From: a virus
IMG/VR virus record: IMGVR_UViG_3300047510_001118
Coordinates: 62,001 to 126,000 of that record
Length of the DNA: 64,000 bases
Strand: one strand, 5' to 3'
Below the pieces are notes generated by a model, which saw nothing but the letters and a program-made list of their open reading frames with translations, was not told where the DNA came from and searched no databases. Every line of letters starts with the position of its first letter. Position 1 is the stretch's first letter. Both the position numbers and the translations under genes were made by a program. Below, piece after piece: positions 37,941 to 51,249 of this stretch.

Positions 37941-38121
37941 TCGTTGGTACGGCAACACTAGAGATTTTTATCACGTGCTCAGCGTGGTCGAAATAAACGG
38001 ACAGACTTGGGTACACTATCGTAGAGAAAATCCCTCTTCTGAAACACACAATGTAGAATTCAGTTGTTACTTAGAAAGTTTTCTTAGTAGGTTCTCTAGA
38101 TATGAAAACACCAGTCGTTAA
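37918..38121 (+). CDS. small phage protein (67 aa)
   Basis: ATG 37918 preceded by GGAGGAAATA. Strand-rich (GSRWYGNTRDFYHVLSV, GQTWVHYRRE) and reminiscent of a small SH3-like fold. Overlaps the previous gene by 23 bases. Confidence 0.75.
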   Translation: MTQVEQGSRWYGNTRDFYHVLSVVEINGQTWVHYRRENPSSETHNVEFSCYLESFLSRFSRYENTSR

Positions 38122-38278
38122 GAATTTTAGAACCTGGGCACAGGAAATATGGTTCCAAAACTGTGAGGAACACGACTTATACTATCTGCCCAGATATACA
38201 CAACAAGAGTATTTTCATCAGTATAAATGGTGGCTTCGAGCTCGTTATCAACAGCTCAAACGCCAAGGGCTAGTATGA
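38102..38278 (+). CDS. small basic protein (58 aa)
   Basis: Aromatic and basic (W x 5, Y x 6, WWLRARYQQLKRQGL tail), probably one long helix at the end. It is coupled on both sides by overlapping codons (ATGA with the next). Unknown function. Confidence 0.68.
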   Translation: MKTPVVKNFRTWAQEIWFQNCEEHDLYYLPRYTQQEYFHQYKWWLRARYQQLKRQGLV

Positions 38279-38622
38279 CACTATCAGAATTAGAAACATT
38301 GGCCGGACGACCCAGAGGCGGCAATCAGATCACTGAGTGGCAGTGCTGGGGCGATGATCCCTGTTATTACATCGACTGGGGCACAGAAGACAGTCACCTA
38401 ATGAGTGTGGTAGCCCTGGAAAACGAAACAGTGGTCTGCGTTGAACTGTTTGCGGCCAATGGTGCGTTTCGTTGGATTGAATCAGAATTCCGCAATGACT
38501 TTATGACAGAATGTCTAAACAAAAAGATAGATCCAGAGGACTCAGGTTGGGGACTTTGGCAAGATATTCAAGACCCGCAACAGATCCTAGTACTGTTAGC
38601 ACATATCACAGGTGAACTATGA
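38275..38622 (+). CDS. phage protein of unknown function (115 aa)
   Basis: Start ATG 38275 in an ATGA overlap. TLSELETLAGRPRGGNQITEW then a Trp/Asp-rich domain. No motif. Confidence 0.75.
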   Translation: MTLSELETLAGRPRGGNQITEWQCWGDDPCYYIDWGTEDSHLMSVVALENETVVCVELFAANGAFRWIESEFRNDFMTECLNKKIDPEDSGWGLWQDIQDPQQILVLLAHITGEL

Positions 38623-38933
38623 CACTGCCAGATGAACGTTATCGTGCTGTTTTGTGGGCTGGTAGATTCCTACAGAGCCTCTGCTACAGCAGTGAAACAC
38701 CACGTGTGCCCTTAAAGATTCGACAAGAAGCACGTAGCATACTTAGGCACTTTCCCAGCCAATGGGACATGGATCGTGCCAGCACAGCCGCACCAGATGT
38801 ATTCCAACAACAGATGGAAGCCGTTAGTCGCTTGTTCGCCCAATACGAGTTAAATAAACTAAAGGAGAACACAAATGGCACAGATTTGGACAGTGATGGC
38901 ATTCAGTCCGTCAAAAAATCAACTACAGCGTGA
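38619..38933 (+). CDS. BPSL0761-like small protein (104 aa)
   Basis: DERYRAVLWAGRFLQSL, VPLKIRQEARSILRHFPS fits a small bacterial/phage family of unknown function (DERxxAV...VRxxAxxLLRHYP). Helical throughout. The last 59 bases are also read in another frame by the next gene. Confidence 0.72.
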   Translation: MTLPDERYRAVLWAGRFLQSLCYSSETPRVPLKIRQEARSILRHFPSQWDMDRASTAAPDVFQQQMEAVSRLFAQYELNKLKENTNGTDLDSDGIQSVKKSTTA

Positions 38934-39087
38934 GTTTGACGAAGACAGCCTCAAAGGGCGTCATACCCAGGATCGCAAGTTGGCTCAGCAAAAAGCAGAG
39001 AGTTTCGCACAGCGCCTGAATCAACGTCAGTTCCTACGCACACAGGACTGGCAACCTAAAGTCGAATTAATCGAAACACTGATTTAA
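38875..39087 (+). CDS. small phage protein (70 aa)
   Basis: The strong site AAAGGAG (38862-38868) directs ATG 38875 although the previous frame continues to 38933. QLQREFDEDSLKG and a helical Gln/Arg-rich middle. Unknown function. Confidence 0.76.
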   Translation: MAQIWTVMAFSPSKNQLQREFDEDSLKGRHTQDRKLAQQKAESFAQRLNQRQFLRTQDWQPKVELIETLI

Positions 39088-39089
39088 GG

Positions 39090-39118
39090 TTGACAGCCCA
39101 GGTCTAGTATTGTATAAT
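39090..39118 (+). promoter_or_regulatory. sigma70 promoter, leaderless
   Basis: TTGACA 39090-39095, TATAAT 39113-39118, 17-base spacer. ATG 39125 starts after a six-base gap. Confidence 0.83.
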
Positions 39119-39124
39119 ACTAGC

Positions 39125-39808
39125 ATGAGTAAACAATTTCACCAAGCCCTCAAGACTATACTTGACATGCCCTACTATAAGAACGACCAAGCTCGTTCTG
39201 GGGCCACAGACGCAGGACACGAACAGGCCGTGGCCGACAGAGTTGAATCCGCAGGATTCACAGCAGTGTCCAAAGCACAACACCCAAAACTGACCAAAAG
39301 CCTACTGCGTCGATGGGCAGAGGGTGGCAGCGATCAAGACCTACGTCGAGCCACAGAAGGCATGCCTCCGGGTTCATTTATTGTACAGCCCGCAGGATCA
39401 CAGGGCTTTCCAGATATCCTAGTTCGAGACTTCAACGACAGATTCATAGCCCTTGAATGTAAAAGCGGTAAAAATGGACAGTGTCCCATGTGGAATGACA
39501 ACACTCCCAAACCCATGGCTATCTATGTGCTGAGTTCGGGCGTACAGAACAGCACCACAGTGTTCATGGGTCGTGATGTGATCACAGCAGAAGAACAGAG
39601 CCTAATGGATGAGCTACAGACCAAACTCACAGCCATAGTCAAAGAGTATGCTGTGAAGTTAACCAAAGTAGATCGTTTTAACAGGGGTTGGATACAAAAG
39701 GCACGTAAACAACATTTTCAAGGCGGGGGCTCGGAAAAGACTAATTACTTTACACACAGCCAACGATCAATCTGCGAAAAGAATGCCCTAGACTATGCCC
39801 AACAGTAA
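39125..39808 (+). CDS. PD-(D/E)xK nuclease, likely restriction endonuclease
   Basis: GFPDILVRDFNDRFIALECKSGK gives Asp-97 and Glu-111-x-Lys-113, the PD-(D/E)xK core. 227 aa is normal for a small type II restriction enzyme, and the next gene, overlapping by 14 bases, is a DNA methyltransferase, so a complete R-M pair is likely. Holliday-junction or replication-linked nucleases are the alternative. Note the leaderless promoter: ATG 39125 begins on the predicted +1. Confidence 0.8.
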   Translation: MSKQFHQALKTILDMPYYKNDQARSGATDAGHEQAVADRVESAGFTAVSKAQHPKLTKSLLRRWAEGGSDQDLRRATEGMPPGSFIVQPAGSQGFPDILVRDFNDRFIALECKSGKNGQCPMWNDNTPKPMAIYVLSSGVQNSTTVFMGRDVITAEEQSLMDELQTKLTAIVKEYAVKLTKVDRFNRGWIQKARKQHFQGGGSEKTNYFTHSQRSICEKNALDYAQQ

Positions 39809-40748
39809 ACCATTAAAGCCAGTTAACCTACACCTAAACTCTGTGACCCTCACAGACATTGAAAATCATAAGAACATCACTACCAAAGAACTGCGCAGGG
39901 ATTTGGATAACCTGAATCGCTTTGACGCCCGAGCCAATGCCAACAACTTTGCGGGCAATCCATTCCTTTATCACTATCAGTTTAAGAATCTGCTGAAATG
40001 CCGCAGACAGGATGGCAAGACCATCTATGACATACACAGTGACCCCCAGGCCTGGGCTAAACTGATTGCGGATACCAAAGTACGCAATCGCGGGGGTCGT
40101 ACTGCCGCAGGCAACGTGTTTGAGTGCTTTCGTATCAACTTGGGCAGTATCGTAATGTTCAAGGCCACCACTGCCAAATACCTGTATAAAAAGTATCGTG
40201 CTAAGAGTGTGTTAGACCCTACTGCGGGTTGGGGTGGACGTATGTTGGGTGCTTGGAGCCTGGGCATTGACTACACAGGCATTGACACCAACGTGGAAAT
40301 GAAGCCAGCATACGCAGACATGATGGCATTCTTAAAAGCAGAAACGGGCTTTGACAATGCCCTGTTTGAAGTAGACAACGGGTCTAAGTTAAACATGATT
40401 TGGCGTAGTTGCCTAGACGTAGACTTCAGCGAGCTTGACTACGACTTTGTATTAACCAGCCCACCCTATGTTAATCTAGAGCTCTACGAGCACATGACAC
40501 CCTGGCAACGGGATGAAGACTTTTACACAAACTTCTTTATACCCTTACACACCAAATGTGTCACACACATTAGGCCAGGCGGGCATGTGGCATTTAACAT
40601 TAGCCCAAAGATGTACGCAGATGCTGTCAAGCACGGACTTAGACCCTGTGATGAAGAAGAGGATCTAAAACAGCAGATGGGCCAAAAGGTGGCTGCTCTA
40701 AAAAAGGGTAAAAAGTCGCAGGACAAGATCTACGTTTGGCAGTGCTAG
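39795..40748 (+). CDS. DNA methyltransferase (N4C/N6A, TSPPY type)
   Basis: SAM motif I VLDPTAGWGGRML at 139-151 and catalytic motif IV TSPPY at 221-225; the SPPY form is typical of exocyclic-amine MTases, often N4-cytosine. The first 100 residues (FDARANANNF, NVFECFRIN) may serve as target recognition. Overlap with the nuclease gene suggests one co-regulated modification or restriction module. Recognition site not readable. Confidence 0.85.
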   Translation: MPNSKPLKPVNLHLNSVTLTDIENHKNITTKELRRDLDNLNRFDARANANNFAGNPFLYHYQFKNLLKCRRQDGKTIYDIHSDPQAWAKLIADTKVRNRGGRTAAGNVFECFRINLGSIVMFKATTAKYLYKKYRAKSVLDPTAGWGGRMLGAWSLGIDYTGIDTNVEMKPAYADMMAFLKAETGFDNALFEVDNGSKLNMIWRSCLDVDFSELDYDFVLTSPPYVNLELYEHMTPWQRDEDFYTNFFIPLHTKCVTHIRPGGHVAFNISPKMYADAVKHGLRPCDEEEDLKQQMGQKVAALKKGKKSQDKIYVWQC

Positions 40749-40750
40749 TG

Positions 40751-40924
40751 TCACTGTAGTTCAATCCAAGTGGCCATGCGATCATCACACTCTACCAGTG
40801 TAACATAGTGATCAGTGAGATCGTCATACATGATGTGTATGATGCGAAAGTAGCCCTGGAACCGGAGATCCTGTACACGATTCAATTGGCTGAGGTTAAG
40901 GTCAAAGGTCCTGATTCTAGTCAT
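40751..40924 (-). CDS. small phage protein (57 aa)
   Basis: A lone minus-strand frame after the methyltransferase: TRIRTFDLNLSQLNRVQDL and a beta-hairpin-like end TLVECDDRMATWIELQ. A late-type box CATAAATA (40932-40939) lies seven bases ahead of its ATG. Shares a few bases with the divergent plus gene's region. Confidence 0.65.
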   Translation of the reverse strand: MTRIRTFDLNLSQLNRVQDLRFQGYFRIIHIMYDDLTDHYVTLVECDDRMATWIELQ

Positions 40925-40931
40925 GGTCAAA

Positions 40932-40939
40932 TATTTATG
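40932..40939 (-). promoter_or_regulatory. late promoter box CATAAATA
   Basis: Minus-strand box seven bases before ATG 40924. Confidence 0.42.
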
Positions 40940-40952
40940 GATAACTACTGAT

Positions 40953-41243
40953 ATGAACTTATTACGTGCAACCCGTGACTTCTGGGTGAGAAGTTATACT
41001 AGTGATCGCAGGGCATTTTACTATGAAACCATAGCCGCAGTATGCCTATTCACATCAACTACCTATTTGGCAGTCACTGCCAATCAACCCTTGATGTACT
41101 ACATATATCCCATAAACTTCCTGGGTGCGATCTTTAGTATCTTGAGTTTCCTACGCAGAGGCGCAGGCTGGCCCTTGGTCATGACCATATATTTCGCACA
41201 CCTACACGTATTTGGCTTTGGACGCAGTCTAGGCTTTTGGTAG
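40953..41243 (+). CDS. conserved phage membrane protein (96 aa)
   Basis: Three hydrophobic stretches (TIAAVCLFTSTTYLAV, YIYPINFLGAIFSILSF, WPLVMTIYFAHLHVFGF). The pattern LLRATRDFWVRSYTSD...YYE is one I recall from marine T4-like phages, where it begins MNLL; hence ATG 40953 rather than 40923. Inner-membrane, function unknown. Confidence 0.8.
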   Translation: MNLLRATRDFWVRSYTSDRRAFYYETIAAVCLFTSTTYLAVTANQPLMYYIYPINFLGAIFSILSFLRRGAGWPLVMTIYFAHLHVFGFGRSLGFW

Positions 41244-41244
41244 A

Positions 41245-41436
41245 CTAGGCCACGTGGTCTTTACGGGGCACAGGTGTCATCTCTGGGTCTATCATCAGGG
41301 CCCAAAATACCCGATCTTCCCGTATGTAGAACTCTGCGTATGGCTCCACGGCGCAGGCATGTACCCACTCTGCGCACTGCCATAACTGCTCCTGAACACC
41401 CTCGGGTGCCGAAGTTCTATAACAACGTATGTACAT
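41245..41436 (-). CDS. small protein (63 aa)
   Basis: AGGAGCGAATT before ATG 41436 decides the start and is a minus-strand copy of the phage's extended ribosome site. A variant late box (TGTAAATA, 41465-41458) lies upstream. Alternating hydrophobic strands with Cys, Trp; unknown. Confidence 0.75.
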   Translation of the reverse strand: MYIRCYRTSAPEGVQEQLWQCAEWVHACAVEPYAEFYIREDRVFWALMIDPEMTPVPRKDHVA

Positions 41437-41496
41437 AATTCGCTCCTCGCTCACTGTTATTTACACAGAGCTTTAAATACTTCAAGGAGCGGGATT

Positions 41497-41709
41497 ATGA
41501 CCAAACAACAGCAGAGAACTCAGCGAATCATAGCACAGATGCGGATTCTAGCAGAAACACGCTACAGAGATCGAAATCTACAGCAGTTATATATGGTGGG
41601 ATTTCTAGCAGAACACCTGAGCAGGGCCATGGGTCAAGACAGCAAGGTCTACACAGACTTTTGGGATAATATTCAAGAGCTGGGACTTACAGAACCCGGC
41701 CCCAACTGA
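41497..41709 (+). CDS. small helical protein (70 aa)
   Basis: Preceded by AAGGAGCGGGATT. Basic N-terminal helix with many Gln and Arg, then LYMVGFLAEHLSRAM. Unknown. Converges with the DUF2061 gene (23-base overlap). Confidence 0.77.
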   Translation: MTKQQQRTQRIIAQMRILAETRYRDRNLQQLYMVGFLAEHLSRAMGQDSKVYTDFWDNIQELGLTEPGPN

Positions 41710-41896
41710 TTCTAGCCCATATACGATCATAAAGATAGTAGGATGTCATCCAAACAGCATTGATGATCAAGGTGGGCACTAGAGCGGATTCCAAGCTCTG
41801 CCCTGTGACCAATAACATAATATAGGTAGTGATCAAAACCCATATTCTGTATATGACAGTTTTAACTAGACTGCGAGTAGGTGTTTCGTAGAGCAT
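41687..41896 (-). CDS. DUF2061-like small membrane protein (69 aa)
   Basis: YETPTRSLVKTVIYRIW, two membrane spans with LVTGQSLESAL between, and an end YDRIWARISWG fit the DUF2061 family. Inner membrane; role unknown. Confidence 0.8.
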   Translation of the reverse strand: MLYETPTRSLVKTVIYRIWVLITTYIMLLVTGQSLESALVPTLIINAVWMTSYYLYDRIWARISWGRVL

Positions 41897-41949
41897 AAAT
41901 TCCCGTTCAAGAGTCCCCTAAGCCCTAGAAGGGCCAGCGCAAAAATTTT

Positions 41950-42135
41950 TTAGTGTATGTACTCTATATAATAAGCAACAGCAGACAATAACAAAGTCAC
42001 ATATATCCAACCAAACTGTGATAAATGACCCAACTCTTCTGGCTCCGGTACTGGATAATAGCAGTCATAGTCCGGGTCATAGCGATACCGTCGGCCACTG
42101 CGTACTATGTATTCGTTGTATAGATCGTTGTTCAT
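41950..42135 (-). CDS. small protein with C-terminal membrane span (61 aa)
   Basis: YNEYIVRSGRRYRYDPDYDCYYPVPEP is a motif I recall from T4-like phages; residues 41-60 form one membrane anchor. Function unknown. Confidence 0.78.
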   Translation of the reverse strand: MNNDLYNEYIVRSGRRYRYDPDYDCYYPVPEPEELGHLSQFGWIYVTLLLSAVAYYIEYIH

Positions 42136-42136
42136 A

Positions 42137-42247
42137 TTAGACTAGATCACTGGCCAGTTCGCGAGCTAGATCCTGACTGGGATCTCTTGACAAATACAAA
42201 ACAGCAAATACTGACCAAAACAACCCAAATGCTAGATAACCTATCAT
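42137..42247 (-). CDS. 36-aa membrane peptide
   Basis: AAGGAG nine bases before ATG 42247. One transmembrane helix (residues 3-20) and an acidic tail. It ends one base before the next gene's ATG codon. Confidence 0.66.
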   Translation of the reverse strand: MIGYLAFGLFWSVFAVLYLSRDPSQDLARELASDLV

Positions 42248-42307
42248 ATAGTTTACTCCTTTGTAGTATATATGCGATGCCATTTTGGCTAGCACAGAGT
42301 CTGAATA

Positions 42308-42337
42308 GCCGCGAAGCGGCAGCGCCGCGGTTTTTTT
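42308..42337 (+). terminator. probable rho-independent terminator
   Basis: GCCGC-GAA-GCGGC followed by CCGCGG and seven T. Would stop rightward read-through before the operator hub. Confidence 0.6.
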
Positions 42338-42491
42338 GGCCTCCTAACTTCAACAGTGTATACACTATATTCTACTGTACTCACACTGTACGCTACTGTA
42401 CGCTACTGTATACGCAGCCTAAACGCACTGGCCCCGCTGCACCCACCTAGACCCATTGGTGTAATCTACCTGAGTGAACTGCCAAACTCCA

Positions 42492-42520
42492 TTGACCCCG
42501 CTGCACTGATCTAGTATAAT
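42492..42520 (+). promoter_or_regulatory. sigma70 promoter, leaderless
   Basis: TTGACC 42492-42497, TATAAT 42515-42520, 17-base spacer, then six bases to ATG 42526. Confidence 0.8.
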
Positions 42521-42525
42521 AAGGG

Positions 42526-42825
42526 ATGGACTCTAGACTTAGACAGTTTCTCTTGGGAATTTTGGCTATGTGCACAGTTGTGACCCTATGGCTGTGGGTC
42601 TCTGCCATAGAGATTGAAGAAGAGTTGATGGAACCTGAGTGGACAGTGCCGGAACGGTTCCTTAAGCCCGAAATCGCTGGCCCTAACTCAGTAGAAGATG
42701 ACGTAGACACTACAAAGATCTTAGAGCCCGAACCCCAGCATGGGTGGATAGTGCCTCCAGAACCCCTACGCAAGGCTGCGGGTAAGGTTAAACGGAAGAT
42801 CAAAAAGACTGTGAAAAAAGGGTGA
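42526..42825 (+). CDS. membrane-anchored phage protein (99 aa)
   Basis: N-terminal membrane span (residues 8-28, FLLGILAMCTVVTLWLWV), acidic Pro/Glu-rich middle and a Lys-rich C-terminus (RKAAGKVKRKIKKTVKKG). The shape, anchored with a basic tail, is like phage inhibitors or spanins, but no family is recognised. Leaderless start. Confidence 0.75.
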   Translation: MDSRLRQFLLGILAMCTVVTLWLWVSAIEIEEELMEPEWTVPERFLKPEIAGPNSVEDDVDTTKILEPEPQHGWIVPPEPLRKAAGKVKRKIKKTVKKG

Positions 42826-42849
42826 GAGTATTTGAACTATGCCTATCAT

Positions 42850-43414
42850 CGGTACGGACCGGTCAAGAAAAATATTGCTCATATCCTAGGTTTACCAGTA
42901 GCGACCGGTTGGGAAAACAGTGGCCGGTAGTGACCGCCGGTGTCTACCACCGTGAACCGGTATAGACCGAAACAGTGTTTTCACCATAAAAATCCCCTAG
43001 ATCGATGATAAATTACCATTCGGTCGCGACCGGTTCAAGGGTCTTTTAACCCTAGACACGGTAGGGTCACAGAGGATCTAAGTTAGTGTACGCTAACTCT
43101 AGATGCGAATAGTTCTTATCTACAGCGAAAAAACCGTTGTTCAAAAGCCACATCGGTCTCGACCGGCGGGTTAGTTAGTGCTTACTTAGAGAGAAAGTTA
43201 GTTGGCGCTTACATTTCTAGAAATGACAGGCACCCTCCACGTCCACCCCCGGACTGCCCGATCGAACGCATGTAGGACTAAGGTGTTATTATTATCGCTC
43301 TCTTAGTGTTTGCAGTATACTGTCACTCAGAGATTCTGTCAACCGGTAGTGACCGAATAGTTGAGTAGACTCTAGGGCTTTTCGGTAGTGACCGGTTGAC
43401 ATCGGTAGCGACCG
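42850..43414. repeat. CGGT-N4-ACCG operator array
   Basis: Nine 12-bp inverted repeats spaced 10-190 bases apart. The spacers vary (ACGG, AGTG, ATAG, CGCG, CTCG, AGCG), while the arms are nearly fixed, as expected for a dimeric DNA-binding protein. The same site sits between -35 and -10 of promoters at 44333, 44858, 45329, 45947 and 50575. Confidence 0.8.
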
Positions 43415-43424
43415 GTGTTATACT
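43396..43424 (+). promoter_or_regulatory. sigma70 promoter with operator in spacer
   Basis: TTGACA 43396-43401, TATACT 43419-43424, 17-base spacer carrying the 43403 operator; a second operator ends two bases before the -35. Confidence 0.85.
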
Positions 43425-43456
43425 ATAGACTAGTTAATTAATTCAGGAGCGAACTG

Positions 43457-44158
43457 ATGAAACTGTTAAGTACTGCCAACCCAAAGATCCAGAAGGGTAC
43501 GAAACTGGGTTACTTGAGCTTTATCCTACACCTTGCGCCCGCAGATCTCAGTGGTCGTGAGACTTGCCCCAAGCGCACTCAAGGCTGCACCAGTGCATGT
43601 CTTAATACAGCGGGTCGTGGGGGTATGTTTAAACGGGGTGAAACGACTAACATGATCCAACAAGCTCGCATTCGTAAGACAAGGATGTTCTTTGAAGCTC
43701 GCGACGAATTCATGGCTCAACTAGAGAAAGACATTCGTTTAGGTATTAAGCAGGCCTCTAAGTTGGGATTGACACCCGTATTCCGTTTAAATGGTACCAG
43801 CGATCTTGCCTGGGAGAAGTACGGGATCATTGACAAGTTCCCAGGTGTACAGTTCTATGACTATACTAAGGTTTTGGGTCGCAAGGTCAGCCACTTAAAG
43901 AACTATCACTTGACGTTTTCAGCGGCAGATGGCAACGACAGAGATGTCCAAAAGGCCGTAGATCAAGGCATGAATGTGGCTGTGGTGTTCGATCGTTTGC
44001 CCGAAACTTACATGGGCAGGCGTGTGGAAGACGCTGATCAGCACGATCTGCGCTTCTTAGACCCTAAGGGTACAGTGGCAGGACTCAAAGCCAAGGGCCG
44101 TGCTAAGAAGGACACCACCGGATTTGTTCGTAAGACTATTATCTTGGAGGTTGCATAA
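43457..44158 (+). CDS. GP88-like phage/plasmid protein (233 aa)
   Basis: CPKRTQGCTSACLNTAGRGG and the following RIRKTRMFFE ... EFMAQL are the marks of a family found in phages and plasmids (gene product 88-like), of unknown biochemical role; the cysteines may bind metal. Ribosome site AGGAGCGAACTG. First gene behind the operator hub, so probably among the earliest expressed. Confidence 0.82.
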   Translation: MKLLSTANPKIQKGTKLGYLSFILHLAPADLSGRETCPKRTQGCTSACLNTAGRGGMFKRGETTNMIQQARIRKTRMFFEARDEFMAQLEKDIRLGIKQASKLGLTPVFRLNGTSDLAWEKYGIIDKFPGVQFYDYTKVLGRKVSHLKNYHLTFSAADGNDRDVQKAVDQGMNVAVVFDRLPETYMGRRVEDADQHDLRFLDPKGTVAGLKAKGRAKKDTTGFVRKTIILEVA

Positions 44159-44346
44159 TGGCTCAATATGATCCGCAGGACGATCTACTGTTAGAGGACT
44201 TGGAGTATCGTAAGCAGATGGCCGTGGCCACCCTAAACGATGCCATCAATCAGATCTATAACATAGAGGGCGATCGCTGGCAAATGGCCTATGATACCCT
44301 GGAAGCCGTCATGGGTAATCTCAAGATAGAGGTTGACAACCGGTAG
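44158..44346 (+). CDS. small phage protein (62 aa)
   Basis: TAATG coupling with the previous gene. Acidic, helical. Its last codons are also the -35 and operator of the next promoter, so promoter and coding constraint overlap. Confidence 0.75.
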   Translation: MAQYDPQDDLLLEDLEYRKQMAVATLNDAINQIYNIEGDRWQMAYDTLEAVMGNLKIEVDNR

Positions 44347-44362
44347 GGACCGGTGCTATACT
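44333..44362 (+). promoter_or_regulatory. sigma70 promoter with operator in spacer
   Basis: TTGACA 44333-44338, TATACT 44357-44362, 18-base spacer with CGGTAGGGACCG (44341-44352). Overlaps the 3' end of the previous gene. Confidence 0.85.
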
Positions 44363-44391
44363 ATAGGCTAGATAGTTAAAAAGGAGCGAAG

Positions 44392-44655
44392 ATGTTTACA
44401 GTTGAAATCTACAAGAAGGATGCCCGTACTAAAGTGGGTGAGCGCATGGTCCACAAGGCAGATCATAATACCGATAACCTCTCAATGCTAGAGCACTCTG
44501 TGAAGAATACTTGGCGTGCATCACAGGGCTATCGCTACGAGATCCACGAGACCTATGTAACCCGACGGAACTTGATGGGCGGTGCGGAGTTCAAAGAACG
44601 CTATGACACGCCCTACTATTGCTCACCCAGTTCTGAATCTTATTGGAGTATGTGA
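44392..44655 (+). CDS. small phage protein (87 aa)
   Basis: Ribosome site AAGGAGCGAAG. Strand/helix mix with an aromatic end (YYCSPSSESYWSM). Unknown. Confidence 0.78.
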   Translation: MFTVEIYKKDARTKVGERMVHKADHNTDNLSMLEHSVKNTWRASQGYRYEIHETYVTRRNLMGGAEFKERYDTPYYCSPSSESYWSM

Positions 44656-44656
44656 T

Positions 44657-44854
44657 ATGGCTACTGTAGACGGCGTAAGAGTACAGGTAGGGGACTGGGT
44701 CTCGTTTAAGAGCGACATAGAACAGTCGGGCAAGATCCAAGCAGTACTGTCGGGCAATAGGTTAGTGCTCACTAACCCTAACGGATTCCAGGGTGACTAC
44801 ATTGGTGGCTCGGAGACTACGATAGAACGTGCAGAGGACTGTTGGATCGAATAG
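44657..44854 (+). CDS. small SH3/KOW-like protein (65 aa)
   Basis: Start ATG 44657, one base after the previous stop. VRVQVGDWVSFKSDIEQSGKIQAVLSGNRLVLT reads as a small beta-barrel of the KOW/SH3 type. Possibly binds DNA or RNA polymerase. Inference only. Confidence 0.72.
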   Translation: MATVDGVRVQVGDWVSFKSDIEQSGKIQAVLSGNRLVLTNPNGFQGDYIGGSETTIERAEDCWIE

Positions 44855-44857
44855 TGG

Positions 44858-44887
44858 TTGACAACCGGTACTGACCGGTTGTATACT
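44858..44887 (+). promoter_or_regulatory. sigma70 promoter with operator in spacer
   Basis: TTGACA 44858-44863, TATACT 44882-44887, 18 bases, CGGTACTGACCG at 44866-44877. Confidence 0.84.
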
Positions 44888-44916
44888 GCAGTTATAGTAA
44901 ACAAAAAGGAGCGAAG

Positions 44917-45180
44917 ATGAATATCAGTACACTGCAAGCATTGGTAGAACAAGAGAATCGTTGGGGTAAATTGTTTGGGCGTCGTGAGCTCAGCCTGCTC
45001 CGCGCAGAAGATCGTCAGAAGATCGCTGGGATCATTGACAGCAGACTCAGCCCTGAGAACTTGACCTGCGATGGCGAGTTAAGCCGTGCAGAAGTGAACA
45101 GTCGCTATCGTCAATTGACCCGTGCGGCAGAAGAGTTGTTGAGCATTGACTCTAGTGTGACCTTTTACGAATTTAACTAA
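44917..45180 (+). CDS. small helical phage protein (87 aa)
   Basis: Ribosome site AAGGAGCGAAG. Mostly helical and charged (GRRELSLLRAEDRQK). Unknown. Confidence 0.77.
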   Translation: MNISTLQALVEQENRWGKLFGRRELSLLRAEDRQKIAGIIDSRLSPENLTCDGELSRAEVNSRYRQLTRAAEELLSIDSSVTFYEFN

Positions 45181-45190
45181 GGAGATTGAT

Positions 45191-45328
45191 ATGAACACCT
45201 ATCGTATTCAAGTGCGACTCAGTAACGGTATGGTCACTGAGACCGCTGTACAGGCTATTAGCCCTGCGATCGCCCGTGCCATGGTTGAGAGTCAGTATGG
45301 CGCAGGTTCCTTTTTGGGCTACCTTTAA
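45191..45328 (+). CDS. small phage protein (45 aa)
   Basis: ATG 45191 after AAGGAGATTGAT. One beta hairpin and a helix with ARAMVESQYG. Unknown. Confidence 0.72.
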   Translation: MNTYRIQVRLSNGMVTETAVQAISPAIARAMVESQYGAGSFLGYL

Positions 45329-45358
45329 TTGACAACCGGTCATGACCGGTAGTAAAGT
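45329..45358 (+). promoter_or_regulatory. sigma70 promoter with operator, leaderless
   Basis: TTGACA 45329-45334, TAAAGT 45353-45358 (18 bases), operator CGGTCATGACCG at 45337-45348. ATG 45365 follows six bases later. The only weak -10 of the set. Confidence 0.75.
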
Positions 45359-45364
45359 ATAACT

Positions 45365-45655
45365 ATGAAAGCAGTCAAACACACCGACGGAATACGCAGG
45401 ATCACCATGAAGATGGAGGTTGCTGTGGATGTTCGCCACTTGACCCTGTATGCACTGGACATGGTCAAAGGCGAGCAGTTCCCGGTGGACGTGATTTGTT
45501 CTGCTAACAAAAGGGAGATCTTTGCCCTAGCTCGAGCCAATATTCAGTCATTTGGTAAGGACACAGCAATTCAGAACGTGCCGCTGAGTCTAAACCCTGT
45601 AGAGATACAGCGAGCAATGGATCACGTTCGTAGTGTTTTTCCGGAGATTGATTAA
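45365..45655 (+). CDS. phage protein of unknown function (96 aa)
   Basis: Beta-rich start and a helical end. Leaderless start at the predicted +1. Unknown. Confidence 0.75.
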   Translation: MKAVKHTDGIRRITMKMEVAVDVRHLTLYALDMVKGEQFPVDVICSANKREIFALARANIQSFGKDTAIQNVPLSLNPVEIQRAMDHVRSVFPEID

Positions 45656-45960
45656 TGAATTCGATGCTTAGTTTGTATGGTAGACCTGTGGTCATGTTCG
45701 ATGTTAAGAACAAAGAACATCGTAGGATGGCACACCGGTTCTTGGTGGAACGTTCATGGGGTGGGTGCCCGGTGAGATTCGCCCTGCCCATTGGTGAGGG
45801 CAATGTCTACTCTATGGTCATGCGACTGTTGACCCAGTACTATTCTGCCAAAGAGTTTGGCCCTATTCCACAAGAGGACAGCGATCGTTGGCGTGAAGAT
45901 CTTGTGGCAAATACGCCACAGGTTGAATGGCGTAGAGCAACAGAGGTTGACAACCGGTAG
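45655..45960 (+). CDS. phage protein of unknown function (101 aa)
   Basis: TAATG coupling. SLYGRPVVMFDV, ERSWGGCPVRFAL; a small alpha/beta fold. Its 3' end again contains the next promoter. Confidence 0.75.
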   Translation: MNSMLSLYGRPVVMFDVKNKEHRRMAHRFLVERSWGGCPVRFALPIGEGNVYSMVMRLLTQYYSAKEFGPIPQEDSDRWREDLVANTPQVEWRRATEVDNR

Positions 45961-45976
45961 GGACCGGTGCTATACT
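45947..45976 (+). promoter_or_regulatory. sigma70 promoter with operator in spacer
   Basis: TTGACA 45947-45952, TATACT 45971-45976, 18 bases, CGGTAGGGACCG at 45955-45966. Confidence 0.85.
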
Positions 45977-46092
45977 AATGATACTGTGAAAGTTAAGGGT
46001 GGTTCTGGCAGTCCTAGGTAAAACCTTAATTCAGAGTCAAATCAAGTGCGTGCCAACTCTGAGCCCAACTATTTTTGAAAAGGAGCGAACCT
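45977..46092 (+). promoter_or_regulatory. long 5' leader with stem-loop
   Basis: An unusually long leader (about 110 bases; most here are 25-35). It includes TCAGAGT ... ACTCTGA, a 7-bp stem around an 18-base loop, shortly before the AAGGAGCGAA ribosome site. Could control translation. Confidence 0.45.
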
Positions 46093-46290
46093 ATGTATGA
46101 CATCGTAAAGAACCCAATCCCCCGTAGCGGTCTATTCACTACGCCTACCCTGGAAGAGATCCAACGTCACATCAGCGGTCTACCCAGCGGTGAGCAGGCA
46201 GTGGCCAGCATGGTGTTCATGTTCACGCTGAACGCCTGTAACAAACTCGTAGAAGACGAGATCCTCTCTAAAGATGTATTCGCACAGTAA
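46093..46290 (+). CDS. small helical phage protein (65 aa)
   Basis: ATG 46093 is fixed by AAGGAGCGAA. TPTLEEIQRHISGLPSGEQAV then a Met/Phe-rich helix. Unknown. Confidence 0.76.
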   Translation: MYDIVKNPIPRSGLFTTPTLEEIQRHISGLPSGEQAVASMVFMFTLNACNKLVEDEILSKDVFAQ

Positions 46291-46300
46291 GGAGCAGACT

Positions 46301-46576
46301 ATGAAGTCAGTACAAGAGATCAACTCAGCAATCATCCAAGGTACCTTTACCAATGACGAGCTCACTAGCATGATTGACGCTGTGAAGTTTGCACGTAGCC
46401 GTCTAAGTAACCAAATCAAATTCCAGGTGCGCAATGGTAGCACAGTGACATTCACTAGCAAACACGGTATGACTTATAGGGGCACTGTGGAGAAGGTGGC
46501 TATCAAATACGCCACAGTCAACACCCAAGTAGGTCGTTACAAGGTTCCTATGAACATGTTAGAGGTTGTTGCGTAA
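46301..46576 (+). CDS. conserved T4-like phage protein, KOW-like end (91 aa)
   Basis: Residues 1-35 helix (LTNDEL-type), then GSTVTFTSKHGMTYRGTVEKV, a small barrel. I recall homologues in cyanophages, function unknown. ATG 46301 after AAGGAGCAGACT. Confidence 0.78.
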   Translation: MKSVQEINSAIIQGTFTNDELTSMIDAVKFARSRLSNQIKFQVRNGSTVTFTSKHGMTYRGTVEKVAIKYATVNTQVGRYKVPMNMLEVVA

Positions 46577-46587
46577 ACGCAACACAC

Positions 46588-46599
46588 CGGTAACTACCG
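46588..46599. promoter_or_regulatory. operator CGGT-AACT-ACCG upstream of promoter
   Basis: A full palindrome one base before the -35 at 46601, with a single half-site (46616-46619) inside the spacer. So the operator has moved upstream at this promoter. Confidence 0.72.
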
Positions 46600-46600
46600 G

Positions 46601-46629
46601 TTGACAAGATAGCGGACCGGTAGTATACT
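46601..46629 (+). promoter_or_regulatory. sigma70 promoter
   Basis: TTGACA 46601-46606, TATACT 46624-46629, 17 bases. Confidence 0.83.
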
Positions 46630-46656
46630 ATAGGCTAAGTTAACAAGGAGCGAACT

Positions 46657-46926
46657 ATGTTAAACATCAGCAAAATCGTCAAAGTCTACAACGGACGCAT
46701 AGGTTGTATGTGCGGCTGTAACGGAAAATATTCCTATACCGAAGACGGTGCCAGGAACTATGGCCCGGGCTACGACGTCACAGACAGCATCAATGAGCGT
46801 AGTGTGCGCATCATTGCTAAGAAGATCCTCAGCAATCCGAATGTAGAGTTTGAAAACAATTATGCGTTCGTAGAGGATCGCGTTCGTAACAAAATGCAAA
46901 TGGTGGTTTTTAAGGAGCAGGCATGA
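46657..46926 (+). CDS. conserved phage protein (89 aa)
   Basis: VYNGRIGCMCGCNGKYSY has three near cysteines; then a mixed fold. Recalled from marine T4-like phages, unknown role. Ribosome site AAGGAGCGAACT. Confidence 0.8.
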   Translation: MLNISKIVKVYNGRIGCMCGCNGKYSYTEDGARNYGPGYDVTDSINERSVRIIAKKILSNPNVEFENNYAFVEDRVRNKMQMVVFKEQA

Positions 46927-47273
46927 TTAAATTTAATTGCGTATTAGAGACAGCCGGAAACGGCTACTGGTCGGACGTTGCTAAGTCTGTGAACGTCACT
47001 AAGATCAGCGTACCCTATGTCAACGAAGACGAGGACTTTGGTGAGCTCTGCGTTTACTTTGACAAGCAATGGGACACCCGCAAGGACGGGTTGATCTATA
47101 CGGACAGCCAGTTCCTTACAATGCTGAAAGACCGGCTCACAGAGTGTGGCTTTGATGCCACAGATGTAGACTACTCAGAGCAGGGCATGCAGGGCAACGA
47201 CTACGTGAGCTTAGACGTAGGCGAAAAGTTCCTAAAAAGTTGGTTCAATGTGGTTGACAAAGTTCTGGATTGA
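46923..47273 (+). CDS. phage protein of unknown function (116 aa)
   Basis: Four-base overlap upstream. Acidic with aromatic strands; the 3' end carries the next -35. Unknown. Confidence 0.77.
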   Translation: MIKFNCVLETAGNGYWSDVAKSVNVTKISVPYVNEDEDFGELCVYFDKQWDTRKDGLIYTDSQFLTMLKDRLTECGFDATDVDYSEQGMQGNDYVSLDVGEKFLKSWFNVVDKVLD

Positions 47274-47282
47274 GCTTATACT
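47254..47282 (+). promoter_or_regulatory. sigma70 promoter (no operator)
   Basis: TTGACA 47254-47259, TATACT 47277-47282, 17 bases. Confidence 0.83.
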
Positions 47283-47315
47283 ATTAAAACAGTAACAAAT
47301 TAAGGAGCGAAACTT

Positions 47316-47795
47316 ATGGCAACTCGAAGCAGAATTGGCGTCATGCACGGAGATGTGGTCAAACACGTTTACTGTCACTGGGACGGTTATTTGAGCAATA
47401 ATGGTCAAATCCTACAAGAACACTACGATTCAACAAAGGCCAACAACTTGGTCGCGCTGGGTGACATTAGCAGTCTGCGCCCCGACATTGGTGAGAAGCA
47501 CGACTTTAGCCGTTTGGACAGCCCCCTGTCTGAAGACGAGTACGAAAAGCTCTACGGCAACATGACCACGTTCTACGGACGTGATCGCGGCGAAGAGAAC
47601 ACAGGTTGGAAGGTCAGCCACTCGTTTGAGGACTTCTTGGATCACGCTGCCGGATGCGGTGCTGAATGGTACTACATTCTCAGAGACGGTGTTTGGTATT
47701 GTGGCAACTTGTACAGCAGTGATTCACGCCACTACAAGAACTTGGTAGTACTGCGTGACAGCATTGAGTTGGAGTTGGCAGAGGAGGCAGCATGA
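47316..47795 (+). CDS. conserved phage protein, MATRSRIG family (159 aa)
   Basis: Opens MATRSRIGVMHGD...YCHWDGYLSNNG and LVALGDISSLRP, a very widespread phage protein family with no known function. Ribosome site AAGGAGCGAAACT. Confidence 0.86.
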   Translation: MATRSRIGVMHGDVVKHVYCHWDGYLSNNGQILQEHYDSTKANNLVALGDISSLRPDIGEKHDFSRLDSPLSEDEYEKLYGNMTTFYGRDRGEENTGWKVSHSFEDFLDHAAGCGAEWYYILRDGVWYCGNLYSSDSRHYKNLVVLRDSIELELAEEAA

Positions 47796-48004
47796 AAGTT
47801 ATCGTAGAGACTGTGCTGACCCAAGAGCTTGAGGTTCCTGACAACTGGGATAGGTACGATGTGTTTGACTTCCTAGCAGAGAATCAATCCTTCCGTACAG
47901 CGTTCCAGGGTGTGAGCAACACGGACCAAACAGCCCGCATCATTGACGTGGGTGTGGTAACTGAAACAGTAACCGAAATGGGCGAGGAGGCCTTTGATGA
48001 GTAA
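47792..48004 (+). CDS. small acidic phage protein (70 aa)
   Basis: Four-base overlap. VETVLTQELEVPDNWDRYDVFDFLAENQ; Unknown. Confidence 0.76.
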   Translation: MKVIVETVLTQELEVPDNWDRYDVFDFLAENQSFRTAFQGVSNTDQTARIIDVGVVTETVTEMGEEAFDE

Positions 48005-48179
48005 AATGGCAGAATTGGATATGTATGCTTACGATATTGAGCAACTGTATATCGATGGCTTGACTGAAAAGAACATTGCCAAGACCCTGGACATCCCCGT
48101 AGAGTACGTCTACGCTTGGATGGAGATGAATGGTGTGTGCGACGAAGAGTTCAGCCCTAACGCAACTATTAACTCCTAA
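47997..48179 (+). CDS. helix-turn-helix protein (60 aa)
   Basis: QLYIDGLTEKNIAKTLDIPVEYVYAWMEMNG is a compact HTH of the sigma-region-4/resolvase kind. A candidate small DNA-binding regulator, for example of the CGGT-N4-ACCG sites, but without direct evidence. GGCGAGGAGG before ATG 47997. Confidence 0.75.
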   Translation: MSKMAELDMYAYDIEQLYIDGLTEKNIAKTLDIPVEYVYAWMEMNGVCDEEFSPNATINS

Positions 48180-48190
48180 GGCCCCGCTAT

Positions 48191-48418
48191 ATGCAGATCA
48201 CAATTCAGAACCTTAGCCCTGTTGAAATCGAAATTGCGGATGCGCTTTGGGCCTGCGAGGATTTGAATGAGGTCAGAGACTACGTTCTCAGACTGCCAAA
48301 ATCATTGAGAGATCGGGCTCATGCTCTTTATCATACAATGATCTACGAAGTTATTGATCAGGAAATGGATGTTAACGATCTAGAAATGGCGAATCAAGTC
48401 ATTGACAAATATCGTTAA
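48191..48418 (+). CDS. conserved T4-like phage protein (75 aa)
   Basis: ITIQNLSPVEIEIADALWACEDLNEV is a motif I recall in cyanophages. Helical. Unknown. Confidence 0.78.
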   Translation: MQITIQNLSPVEIEIADALWACEDLNEVRDYVLRLPKSLRDRAHALYHTMIYEVIDQEMDVNDLEMANQVIDKYR

Positions 48419-48429
48419 TCTGCTATAAT
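48402..48429 (+). promoter_or_regulatory. sigma70 promoter
   Basis: TTGACA 48402-48407, TATAAT 48424-48429, 16 bases; -35 inside the preceding gene's end. Confidence 0.8.
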
Positions 48430-48476
48430 AATAAGACGATGCGGAACAGCATCTCTTTAACTACAGAGGAATTAAA

Positions 48477-48752
48477 ATGAAATACACTTTTTCTAAAGAA
48501 AGCAAGACTTTTAAAGTTTTCAACGCTCTTTATCAGGGCGAGCGTTTGACACAGAGCCAAGCCGTTAAACGTTTCGGCGTTAAGAATTTGGCTGCTGAAG
48601 CAAGCCGTATCCGTCAAAACGGTTACGCTGTCTACGCAAAGAGCCGTACTGCTGGTAATGGTGTTACCGTTACTGAGTACGAAATGGGTAATCCAAGTCG
48701 TGAGATCGTTGCTTTAGGTTACAAAGCCAAAGCAATGGGCATCACTATCTAA
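48477..48752 (+). CDS. winged-HTH-like conserved phage protein (91 aa)
   Basis: FKVFNALYQGERLTQSQAVKRFGVKNLAAEASRIRQNGYAVYA reads as a winged helix with a recognition helix at AAEASRIRQ. Recalled from T4-like phages. Candidate transcription regulator. The anti-Shine-Dalgarno hairpins lie directly in its 3' region. Confidence 0.78.
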   Translation: MKYTFSKESKTFKVFNALYQGERLTQSQAVKRFGVKNLAAEASRIRQNGYAVYAKSRTAGNGVTVTEYEMGNPSREIVALGYKAKAMGITI

Positions 48753-48783
48753 GAATAAACTCGCCGCGATGGCGATGTGAAGT

Positions 48784-48868
48784 CCTAGGATTCGCTCCCC
48801 TAGGCAACGGCTGAACCGATTCGCTCCCGGGTAGGCCACCGGAAGGGTACTGTAAAAGGTACCCTTCC
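48784..48868 (+). ncRNA. candidate small RNA with two anti-Shine-Dalgarno loops
   Basis: Hairpin 1: CCTAGG (48784-48789) and CCTAGG (48799-48804) around loop ATTCGCTCC. Hairpin 2: stem GGC..CCG / CGG..GCC (48809-48837, with mismatches) around the same loop ATTCGCTCC (48819-48827). Hairpin 3: GGAAGGGTAC / GTACCCTTCC (48841-48868), a possible 3' end, though without a T-run. TTCGCTCC is the exact complement of the extended ribosome site GGAGCGAA. It may be released from the mRNA of the winged-HTH gene (promoter 48402). Confidence 0.62.
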
Positions 48869-48895
48869 ACCTTATGTGGGTATTCAAAATACCAG

Positions 48896-48924
48896 TTGAC
48901 AGTTTGGAGGATCGGCGCTATACT
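48896..48924 (+). promoter_or_regulatory. sigma70 promoter
   Basis: TTGACA 48896-48901, TATACT 48919-48924, 17 bases. Confidence 0.83.
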
Positions 48925-48954
48925 ATGCACATAGTAAGAAGTTAGGAGCGAAAG

Positions 48955-49239
48955 ATGGAAAAAGGAACTTGCCCAGTCTGTAATGGATCAACCCGTGTGC
49001 CCGCTGGGGATAACAAATATAAATCAGTTATCGCTGGCTACGACCAGGCTACTGATACTTTTGGTTGTACCAACTGCGGGGGTCAGTATATGTACGGTCG
49101 CCCAACAGGTGAAGTTCGCTTGAACAAGGCGGGAGAGCCCTGCACTCACAAATATTCTTCTAAGACAGTGGGACGGTGCTTGACGGAATACACCTGCGAG
49201 CATTGTGGGGATCGATTCCAGATTGACAGCGGTGACTGA
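48955..49239 (+). CDS. zinc-ribbon phage protein (94 aa)
   Basis: Three Cys pairs: CPVCNG, CTNCGG, CEHCGDRF, resembling DnaJ-type and rubredoxin-like zinc ribbons. VPAGDNKY...GYDQATDTF is a pattern recalled from phage proteins. Ribosome site AGGAGCGAAAG. Confidence 0.8.
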   Translation: MEKGTCPVCNGSTRVPAGDNKYKSVIAGYDQATDTFGCTNCGGQYMYGRPTGEVRLNKAGEPCTHKYSSKTVGRCLTEYTCEHCGDRFQIDSGD

Positions 49240-49251
49240 TTGTGCTATACT
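49223..49251 (+). promoter_or_regulatory. sigma70 promoter
   Basis: TTGACA 49223-49228, TATACT 49246-49251, 17 bases. Confidence 0.83.
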
Positions 49252-49281
49252 ATAGGTATAGTGAATGATAAGGAGCGAAAA

Positions 49282-49533
49282 ATGTTGACACTAGATAAAA
49301 TCCGTAAAATTGAATTCCGTGGCGAAGAGTTTGAACAGTTCCACGGCAGTCCGTTTGATCGCGGTGCAGCAGATAGTTATTACGGGAGACCTCAGGACCC
49401 GCATTGGTTTCCTGAAGGCACTTACAAGGGACGCCGCATTGACAGCCCTGACATGACTATGAAAGAACTTCGTGCTTACTTCGCAGGCTACGAATACAAC
49501 GAACAGCATGGCGACAAGAAGGACTGGGGTTAA
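49282..49533 (+). CDS. conserved phage protein, HGSPFDRG family (83 aa)
   Basis: FHGSPFDRGAADSYYGRPQDPHW and an end GYEYNEQHGDKKDWG are typical of a common phage family with no known role. ATG 49282 is fixed by AAGGAGCGAAAA. Confidence 0.83.
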   Translation: MLTLDKIRKIEFRGEEFEQFHGSPFDRGAADSYYGRPQDPHWFPEGTYKGRRIDSPDMTMKELRAYFAGYEYNEQHGDKKDWG

Positions 49534-49625
49534 TGGCTGACCTTGTAACCTATGTCCTACTTCGCATCATCCAGGTGGCGATACTGGTGTTTGCGATAGC
49601 AGTTTTTATCAACGGTTTTTTCTAA
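49533..49625 (+). CDS. 30-aa membrane peptide
   Basis: TAATG coupling, one membrane helix (residues 6-27). A tiny membrane protein such as lysis or exclusion peptides, unidentified. Confidence 0.62.
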   Translation: MADLVTYVLLRIIQVAILVFAIAVFINGFF

Positions 49626-49634
49626 GGAGCGAAT

Positions 49635-50258
49635 ATGCCTAATTGGTGCAATAACAGAGTGGTGATCAGCCACGAAGACTCAAGCAAGATGGAAGCCTTG
49701 GTAGAGGCTATCAAAGATGGTAAGTTCTGTAATCATGTGATTCCTGTGCCCGAAAGTCTACATATCGTAGCAGGCTCTGTAGGTGACCCTGATGAGCAGA
49801 AGAAGCTCGAAGAGGACACAGCCCGTAACCTAGAAGTCCACGGCTATGGCAACTGGTATGACTTCTGTGTGAATCGCTGGGGAACCAAGTGGGATGTAGA
49901 CCCTTACGATCCTACAGATGTTAAGGTTGAGAACAACACCATTGAGTTTGGTTTTGATTCAGCCTGGGCACCACCCGTGGGAGTCTACGATGAACTAGTG
50001 AATCAGGGCTTCGAAGTAGAGGCAACTTACTACGAGCCAGGCATGGCCTTTGTGGGTCGTTGGCATAATGGCTATGATGACTGCGTTGAGTTCGGCGGTG
50101 AGACCTCTGCGACTGTGCGTGATGTCATCGGAGAAGAGCTAGATGATGAGTATGGTATCTCAGAGACCATGGCTGAATACGAAGAGATGGACAAGGACGA
50201 AACTACCCAGTGGTATGAAGAGGGTGTGGAATCCAAAGGTTTAGAGCCACACAAATAA
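49635..50258 (+). CDS. YubB/DUF1281-type ferredoxin-like protein (207 aa)
   Basis: MPNWCNNRVVI, YDFCVNRWGTKWD, FDSAWAPPVGVYDEL and ATYYEPGMAFVGRW are in the order of the YubB ferredoxin-like/Api92 family, common in plasmids and phages, function unknown. Ribosome site AAGGAGCGAAT. Confidence 0.83.
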   Translation: MPNWCNNRVVISHEDSSKMEALVEAIKDGKFCNHVIPVPESLHIVAGSVGDPDEQKKLEEDTARNLEVHGYGNWYDFCVNRWGTKWDVDPYDPTDVKVENNTIEFGFDSAWAPPVGVYDELVNQGFEVEATYYEPGMAFVGRWHNGYDDCVEFGGETSATVRDVIGEELDDEYGISETMAEYEEMDKDETTQWYEEGVESKGLEPHK

Positions 50259-50259
50259 C

Positions 50260-50310
50260 AGCCACTAGGCCCTGCAACACGCCTGGGCACTTCGCTGGTG
50301 TGGCTTTTTT
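50260..50310 (+). terminator. terminator with long-arm stem
   Basis: AGCCAC (50260) pairs with GTGGCT (50300-50305) followed by six T; an alternative pairing uses AGCCACAC at 50245 inside the gene's end. Confidence 0.62.
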
Positions 50311-50321
50311 ACAACAGGAAT

Positions 50322-50345
50322 ACCCTACTTAACCGTAGGGTTTTT
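50322..50345 (+). terminator. rho-independent terminator
   Basis: ACCCTAC, TTAACC loop, GTAGGGT, then five T. Second stop in tandem, isolating the next promoter. Confidence 0.78.
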
Positions 50346-50356
50346 CTGCTTTTTGG

Positions 50357-50385
50357 TTGACGGTTTGGGTGGCCCCTGCTATACT
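50357..50385 (+). promoter_or_regulatory. sigma70 promoter
   Basis: TTGACG 50357-50362, TATACT 50380-50385, 17 bases. The spacer GTTTGGGTGGCCCCTGC resembles that of 52236. Confidence 0.8.
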
Positions 50386-50412
50386 ATAGAAACTGTAACA
50401 AAGGAGCGAGCA

Positions 50413-50565
50413 ATGCTGACACTGAAAGACGCTAAGAAACTGTGTGGGATGGATCCGCGCACTACGGCACGTTGGTATGCGCAGGGCTACTATATGAAGG
50501 CTGACGGACGCTGGTACATTACTGTAGGCGGTGTAGAGTATGTGAAATACTACACCGGAAACTAG
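50413..50565 (+). CDS. small MerR-like HTH protein (50 aa)
   Basis: LTLKDAKKLCGMDPRTTARWYAQG reads as a helix-turn-helix of the excisionase/MerR type, then a wing (WYITVGGVEYVKYY). A candidate DNA-binding regulator. ATG 50413 after AAGGAGCGAGCA. Confidence 0.75.
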   Translation: MLTLKDAKKLCGMDPRTTARWYAQGYYMKADGRWYITVGGVEYVKYYTGN

Positions 50566-50574
50566 GGTTTTTGG

Positions 50575-50604
50575 TTGACAACCGGTAGTGACCGGTGCTA
50601 TAAT
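50575..50604 (+). promoter_or_regulatory. sigma70 promoter with operator, leaderless
   Basis: TTGACA 50575-50580, TATAAT 50599-50604, 18 bases, CGGTAGTGACCG at 50583-50594. ATG 50611 starts after six bases. Confidence 0.84.
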
Positions 50605-50610
50605 ATGAAC

Positions 50611-50829
50611 ATGAACTTAGAAACTATCGCCAAACACACAGCCCTGTTCTTTACCCTAGTAGGGGCCCTATTCACAGCACTAGCCTGGGATCCCATGAAC
50701 ATCCTGTTCTTGAACTTGGGCAGTCTGCTGTATCTCTTTTGGGCCTACAGGGTTAGGGATTGGAATCTCGTAGCAGTCAATGCAGGACTGTTGACAATCT
50801 ATGTGATTGGCGCTATAATTAGACTATGA
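50611..50829 (+). CDS. small phage membrane protein (72 aa)
   Basis: Three membrane spans. ATG 50611 is preferred over 50605, which would lie within three bases of the -10. Operator-controlled. Unknown. Confidence 0.75.
   Translation: MNLETIAKHTALFFTLVGALFTALAWDPMNILFLNLGSLLYLFWAYRVRDWNLVAVNAGLLTIYVIGAIIRL
50791..50819 (+). promoter_or_regulatory. sigma70 promoter, leaderless
   Basis: TTGACA 50791-50796, TATAAT 50814-50819, 17 bases, inside the previous gene; six bases to ATG 50826. Confidence 0.8.
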
Positions 50830-51154: not shown

Positions 51155-51162
51155 AATATTGG

Positions 51163-51191
51163 TTGACACCCAATCCAAACGGTGTTACAAT
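51163..51191 (+). promoter_or_regulatory. sigma70 promoter
   Basis: TTGACA 51163-51168, TACAAT 51186-51191, 17 bases. Confidence 0.8.
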
Positions 51192-51197
51192 ATGGAT

Positions 51198-51216: not shown

Positions 51217-51249
51217 TAACTTTAGGCAACTATAGAAAGGCAACTTAAA

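Follow-up and report, generated by a model that had tools for sequence, protein, structure and literature searches.

The closest described counterparts of the sites reported here are dispersed phage repressor sites such as the mycobacteriophage stoperators (PMC6550527). A single repressor in mycobacteriophage L5 and other cluster A phages has many near-identical sites of which only some lie in early promoters, the site specificity has diversified among related phages, and autoregulation has been proposed (PMC6550527). Stoperators are asymmetric and are bound by a monomeric repressor (PMC9283540). These phages are temperate, with 20-30 sites along the genome. KorB of RK2, a ParB-family protein, is described as having dispersed palindromic operators, as repressing several promoters and as having a possible second role at a cluster of sites. 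Iteron-type plasmid origins have clustered binding sites near DnaA boxes, and the same site is found in promoters. Little is known, to our knowledge, about early-gene shut-off in giant virulent phages that have many tiny, strong promoters of the host type, and a literature search for jumbo-phage early-promoter repressors found no paper on the topic.

The DNA analysed here, called the window, is a 64-kb stretch taken from a virus record of 278,126 bases, in which it spans positions 62001-126000. It contains many near-identical sites, only some of them in promoters, and in this respect it resembles the cluster A phages. It differs from them in that the sites are palindromic and confined to one region, no integrase was matched in the record, which may be incomplete, and the candidate regulator, a 96-aa protein, is without a sequence relative in the searched libraries. 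Stoperators are 13-bp asymmetric sites with a single orientation, which palindromes are not, and because this defining asymmetry fails we do not file the locus as a stoperator system, though it would work likewise. The likeness to KorB lies in the dispersed palindromic sites, several of them at promoters, and in a cluster that may have a second role; the 96-aa protein, however, showed no similarity to known families. With iteron-type origins the locus shares clustered sites, near DnaA boxes in some relatives, and the recurrence of the same site in promoters, but its sites are palindromic and irregularly spaced and no initiator family was identified.

Sites and promoter registers

Exact copies of CGGT-N4-ACCG (CGGTNNNNACCG) occur 14 times in the window versus 0.23 expected, and none of 100 shuffles reaches 14. 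All of them lie within 42850-50594, and the remaining 214 kb of the record holds only two more, both far away. Eight of the 14 are in a 631-base noncoding gap, the hub (starts 42850, 42925, 42958, 43021, 43154, 43344, 43383 and 43403), together with three one-mismatch sites (42896, 42938 and 43393), in agreement with the eight to nine palindromes that the initial annotation had counted there. Each site is palindromic in itself, and the spacing is irregular (30-100 bases). The six exact sites outside the gap had gone unmentioned, and it is these that identify the motif. They are located in promoters of the form TTGACA-aCCGGTnnnnACCGGtgc-TATACT, directly ahead of a small rightward gene. The features to the right of the gap are the following.

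43457..44158, plus strand: gene of the GP88 family (PF17338)
44341..44352: putative operator, in the promoter spacer ahead of gene 44392
44866..44877: putative operator, in the promoter spacer ahead of gene 44917
45337..45348: putative operator, following a TTGACA with a weak -10, 28 bases ahead of the start codon of the candidate regulator gene
45365..45655, plus strand: candidate operator-binding regulator P0001, 96 aa, without known family
45955..45966: putative operator, in the promoter spacer ahead of the next small gene
46588..46599: putative operator, abutting the -35 of the promoter ahead of gene 46657
50583..50594: putative operator, in a promoter spacer; last site of the region

The position of the sites relative to promoters was surveyed for all 92 exact sites of seven array-bearing loci, each from a different contig (the window, L095, L007, L013, L096, L093 and L094), on the assumption that transcription starts seven bases past the -10 hexamer. 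The palindrome takes a fixed place overlapping the -35/-10 region in 55 of the 92 cases, which fall on three exact registers of consensus sigma70 promoters: 34 are centred at -22.5, 4 at -32.5 and 17 at -42.5, i.e. the registers are ten bases, or one helical turn, apart. One of the other 37 is at -19.5, and most belong to promoter-free hub arrays. The strong sigma70 promoters of the record are concentrated at 32-53 kb of the window. A sigma70-like promoter was found upstream of GP88 in all 82 regions tested and the site in 7 of them, and these seven are exactly the phages that have the 96-aa protein. The registers thus make it almost certain, as far as sequence can tell, that the CGGT-N4-ACCG sites are operators of early-type sigma70 promoters.

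Organisation of the noncoding hub

The hub has an equivalent, conserved region in related phages. Its features are listed from left to right.

42826..43456: noncoding hub, between gene 42526-42825 and GP88
42830..42843, plus strand: left conserved element ATTTGAACTATGCC, also present in operator-free relatives
42850..43032: promoter-free array of putative operators, exact at 42850, 42925, 42958 and 43021, with one mismatch at 42896 and 42938
43082..43097: second palindrome GTTAGTGTACGCTAAC, GTTAG-N6-CTAAC, with near-copies at 43170 and 43197
43154..43165: putative operator CGGTCTCGACCG, away from any promoter
43212..43225: 14-base palindrome CATTTCTAGAAATG
43236..43249, minus strand: core of the conserved leftward element, GGGRTGGACG
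43314..43342, minus strand: leftward sigma70 promoter TTGACA-17-TATACT, predicted to drive the conserved leftward element
43344..43355: putative operator abutting the leftward -35, centre -42.5
43383..43394: putative operator abutting the GP88 -35, centre -42.5
43396..43424, plus strand: GP88 promoter TTGACA-17-TATACT
43403..43414: putative operator within the GP88 promoter spacer, centre -22.5

The right part of the hub consists of two divergent promoters (GP88 rightward at 43396, leftward at 43342), each with a site against its -35. The long paired repeat noted earlier is this very arrangement: the inverted pair 43337-43360 / 43378-43401 corresponds to the two back-to-back promoters with one site each. 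The site at the leftward promoter is kept in 6/6 carrier loci in which the hub is present (L013 is truncated), and the first site begins 20 bases from the left element in the four carriers for which that element was detected (the window, L004, L062 and L094). Relatives without any site keep the left element, the leftward promoter and the downstream core GGGRTGGACG, so the hub is independent of its operators. Lineage-specific palindromes at the same place in the hubs of regulator-free relatives followed no common pattern.

The other symmetric repeats of the initial annotation fared differently. An exact GTTAG-N6-CTAAC is present at 43082; this palindrome is about 36-fold enriched in hubs and, in relatives, is conserved about 50 bases beyond the core of the leftward element. 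The 14-base palindrome is likewise in place at 43212-43225, but as a repeated element it was not seen.

The leftward element (GTTCGAAC ... GGGRTGGACG) is found on the minus strand among the loci L001-L080, with two copies in several loci. Downstream of extra copies of GGGRTGGACG elsewhere, terminator-like hairpins were seen by eye in several cases, which suggests a small RNA; the element is probably a small noncoding phage RNA that is as yet undescribed. An Rfam search of the window hub gave no match. A peptide reading was rejected because, by inspection, the reading frame differs between copies. An RNA hairpin within the element was also considered and is unsupported, as a stem of at least 3 pairs occurs in 29/50 copies versus 28 in shuffles.

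The candidate regulator

A search with GP88 gave 80 related loci (the best 80 of 106), five of them array-bearing and 75 array-free. The 96-aa protein encoded at 45365-45655 is present in 5/5 of the former and in 0/75 of the latter, a distribution that no other forward gene of the window at 41-55.5 kb shows. A reverse-strand frame that overlaps it (45340-45540) likewise matches only the five array-bearing loci. A profile search of the translated loci confirmed the protein only in carriers, the next best scores being E 2 or worse.

Placed on an 82-row tree of GP88, the carriers (seven, L094 included) require seven separate changes, and seven of seven independent pairs agree in having protein and sites together (two-sided sign test, p 0.016). 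Shared GP88 ancestry therefore does not explain the pairing. Co-inheritance as a block may explain part of it, since the protein gene is physically linked to the sites; the sites, though, reach 5-6 kb past the regulator gene, into a stretch whose genes are found in non-carriers as well. Separate IMG/VR scans retrieved 6 contigs with the protein and 7 with the operator-promoter pattern, of which 6 are common to both; the seventh pattern contig (L103, 7.5 kb) has a single site and no protein homologue. In these freshwater phages a site stands directly before the regulator gene in 2/7 cases, and in the other 5/7 the nearest upstream site is 319-556 bases off.

The protein had no match in Pfam, PHROGs, NCBIfam, PDB sequences or Foldseek, and the best hits in a collection of named phages were only E 0.7 or worse. 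The AlphaFold model (pLDDT 84) predicts an N-terminal strand region and five helices, with no clear structural relative; that none is among the VIA-align matches listed excludes nothing. The BFVD model A0A7T3U7F0 was considered as a structural relative and set aside (TM 0.60, E 1.8, not significant). The distribution nevertheless argues that 45365-45655 quite likely encodes the binder of CGGT-N4-ACCG. The initial annotation had also read the palindromes as operators, which the fixed promoter registers support, but had named helix-turn-helix proteins as candidate binders, and these do not track the sites: 47994 is present in 40 and 48477 in 16 site-free relatives, and 50353, which overlaps the candidate named at 50413, occurs in one other locus only.

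The nearest named GP88 relatives are the jumbo phages CM1, RAS14 and XacN1. In Xanthomonas phage XacN1 and Stenotrophomonas phage RAS14, GP88 is about 50% identical and stands behind consensus-like promoters; the 17 and 14 kb read in these two contain neither CGGT-N4-ACCG nor DnaA boxes, and no significant homologue of the regulator was found in the phage collection.

Marine homologues

When bacterial genomes were scanned with a profile, a single relative of the 96-aa protein came up, and it led to 44 viral contigs of a marine branch. The marine proteins that were aligned are 29-35% identical to the window protein. Their promoters carry another palindrome, YAAG-N4-CTTR (YAAG-ACRT-CTTG), at spacer register 2-3, i.e. 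in the same promoter register as the freshwater CGGT-N4-ACCG. The counts at the two registers, 7 and 5 versus about 2 each in shuffles, are a modest excess, and that at register 2 (7 versus 2.0 expected) equals the highest value in 500 shuffles. In six whole marine records, a promoter-anchored search yielded 32 matches, distributed over all six, versus 4 with the reversed control. The palindrome is directly ahead of the protein gene in 25/45 marine loci, while no clear operator was seen in the promoter regions read for the two most diverged homologues.

When IMG/VR was scanned for the marine operator without the protein, 71 stretches from 67 contigs matched, and 21 of these contigs are among the 44 protein contigs. 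Thirteen larger records that had been reached through operator matches were tested with the protein profile, and five of them encode the protein; two of the 13 were already known holders (G006 and G018), and three are new, strongly diverged marine homologues in records of 135, 98 and 40 kb (E 1e-14 to 2e-13). All four operator-reached records of at least 55 kb have the protein, and the eight without it are fragments of 27-50 kb.

Model and alternatives

We propose that a phage-encoded repressor, most likely the product of 45365-45655, binds the operator CGGT-N4-ACCG (CGGTAGTGACCG), which lies within near-consensus host sigma70 promoters or abuts their -35. Each promoter would serve a single small rightward gene or a few of them in the 32-54 kb stretch, which is probably the early region. 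With its accumulation the protein would fill the operators and block RNA polymerase, and the early promoters and its own synthesis would be turned off; a protein bound at -22.5 would fill the spacer and should block the polymerase. The hub would be the control point of the region, with its two divergent operator-bearing promoters and a promoter-free array of five to seven sites that may serve cooperative control of the hub or set a repressor threshold by titration. The sites, their registers, the co-occurrence with the protein and a second branch whose palindrome differs but takes the same register are observed; binding, repression rather than activation, early timing and the role of the array are what we infer here. 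We consider it very likely that the 45365-45655 product represses, and reasonably likely that the 96-aa protein represents a new family of small autoregulated repressors that shut off early phage promoters.

Alternatively, the 96-aa protein may be an activator or another co-inherited effector, the true binder being encoded elsewhere. No DNA-binding fold was recognised in the protein and 17/92 sites are at -42.5, a position from which class II activators can work. This alternative is doubtful, however: 34/92 sites are between -35 and -10, the promoters are so near to consensus that an activator is unneeded, no other gene near the sites is in all carriers and absent from all non-carriers, and the association of protein and sites recurs in the marine branch. 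Less unlikely, though still improbable in our opinion, is that the hub is primarily a replication origin; the regulator would then bind the array to initiate replication or to regulate the origin, and its sites in promoters would be secondary. The array begins 20 bases from an element common to regulator-free phages, and perfect DnaA boxes (TTATCCACA) number 43 in 32,120 hub bases versus 9 in 494,002 bases outside (about 73-fold). They are in tandem, often about 11 bases apart, and 11/42 equivalent hubs, including those of the carriers L004, L007 and L044, have at least two. The hubs of the window, L062 and L094, on the other hand, have no perfect box, and the window hub contains no cluster but only a one-mismatch box (TTATCTACA at 43117). 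Moreover, GP88 is present without the sites in 75 relatives (among the best 80 of 106), so the region functions in their absence; GC skew makes no clear turn at the hub and mostly reflects gene-strand bias, and the record encodes a family B DNA polymerase.

The boxes of the relatives may mark an origin or a trap that titrates host DnaA, and titration would explain them equally well; a literature search for DnaA boxes at jumbo-phage origins found no matching paper. What stands of the origin proposed in the initial annotation is thus a conserved noncoding gap with DnaA boxes in relatives, without such boxes in the window itself. On circumstantial evidence, phages of this group may have an origin at the hub, a role that is not carried by the palindromes. 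A partition-like centre had been suggested as well, i.e. the centromere of a ParABS-like or KorB-like system that also represses promoters. Clustered palindromes with scattered promoter sites resemble the KorB operators of RK2, and the evidence is this resemblance only. Most sites are in promoters, and the 278-kb record, which may be incomplete, has no match to PF13614 (ParA-type ATPase) or PF00589 (integrase) and nothing that indicates a maintained prophage or plasmid; we regard this explanation as highly improbable.

If the 96-aa protein is an early-promoter repressor as proposed, it would be a new transcription-factor family represented in two or more phage groups that differ in site specificity, and would offer a natural series of repressor-operator pairs for studying specificity change. 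A farther-reaching version is speculative and, in our judgement, unlikely to hold in full: a new DNA-binding fold would define exchangeable early-gene shut-off cassettes in virulent giant phages, in which regulator and operators are acquired or lost as a unit, the cluster at the origin-like hub couples shut-off of early transcription to replication, and superinfection immunity exists without lysogeny.

Further observations

No DNA similarity to public phages was found. In addition to the polymerase, the record encodes a ribonucleotide reductase and a tropism-determinant-like domain. The part of the window at 38000-54000 has a GC content of 46-48% versus roughly 38% elsewhere, and contains rightward genes, three tRNA genes and most consensus sigma70 promoters of the record. 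GP88 (PF17338) is widely conserved among these loci and in many phages. Tandem perfect DnaA boxes are located at L004 2205-2281, L035 1074-1167, L044 385-528 and L061 2561-2664.

The regulator-free relatives L016, L018, L047, L061 and L067 have GGTAAAACC / GGTTTTACC (CGGT-N3-ACCG) in promoter spacers, which is possibly a second operator type with another regulator. A protein with CHASE2 and adenylate/guanylate cyclase domains is encoded in the phage record of L082 at 5692-7734 (record bases about 25692-27734).
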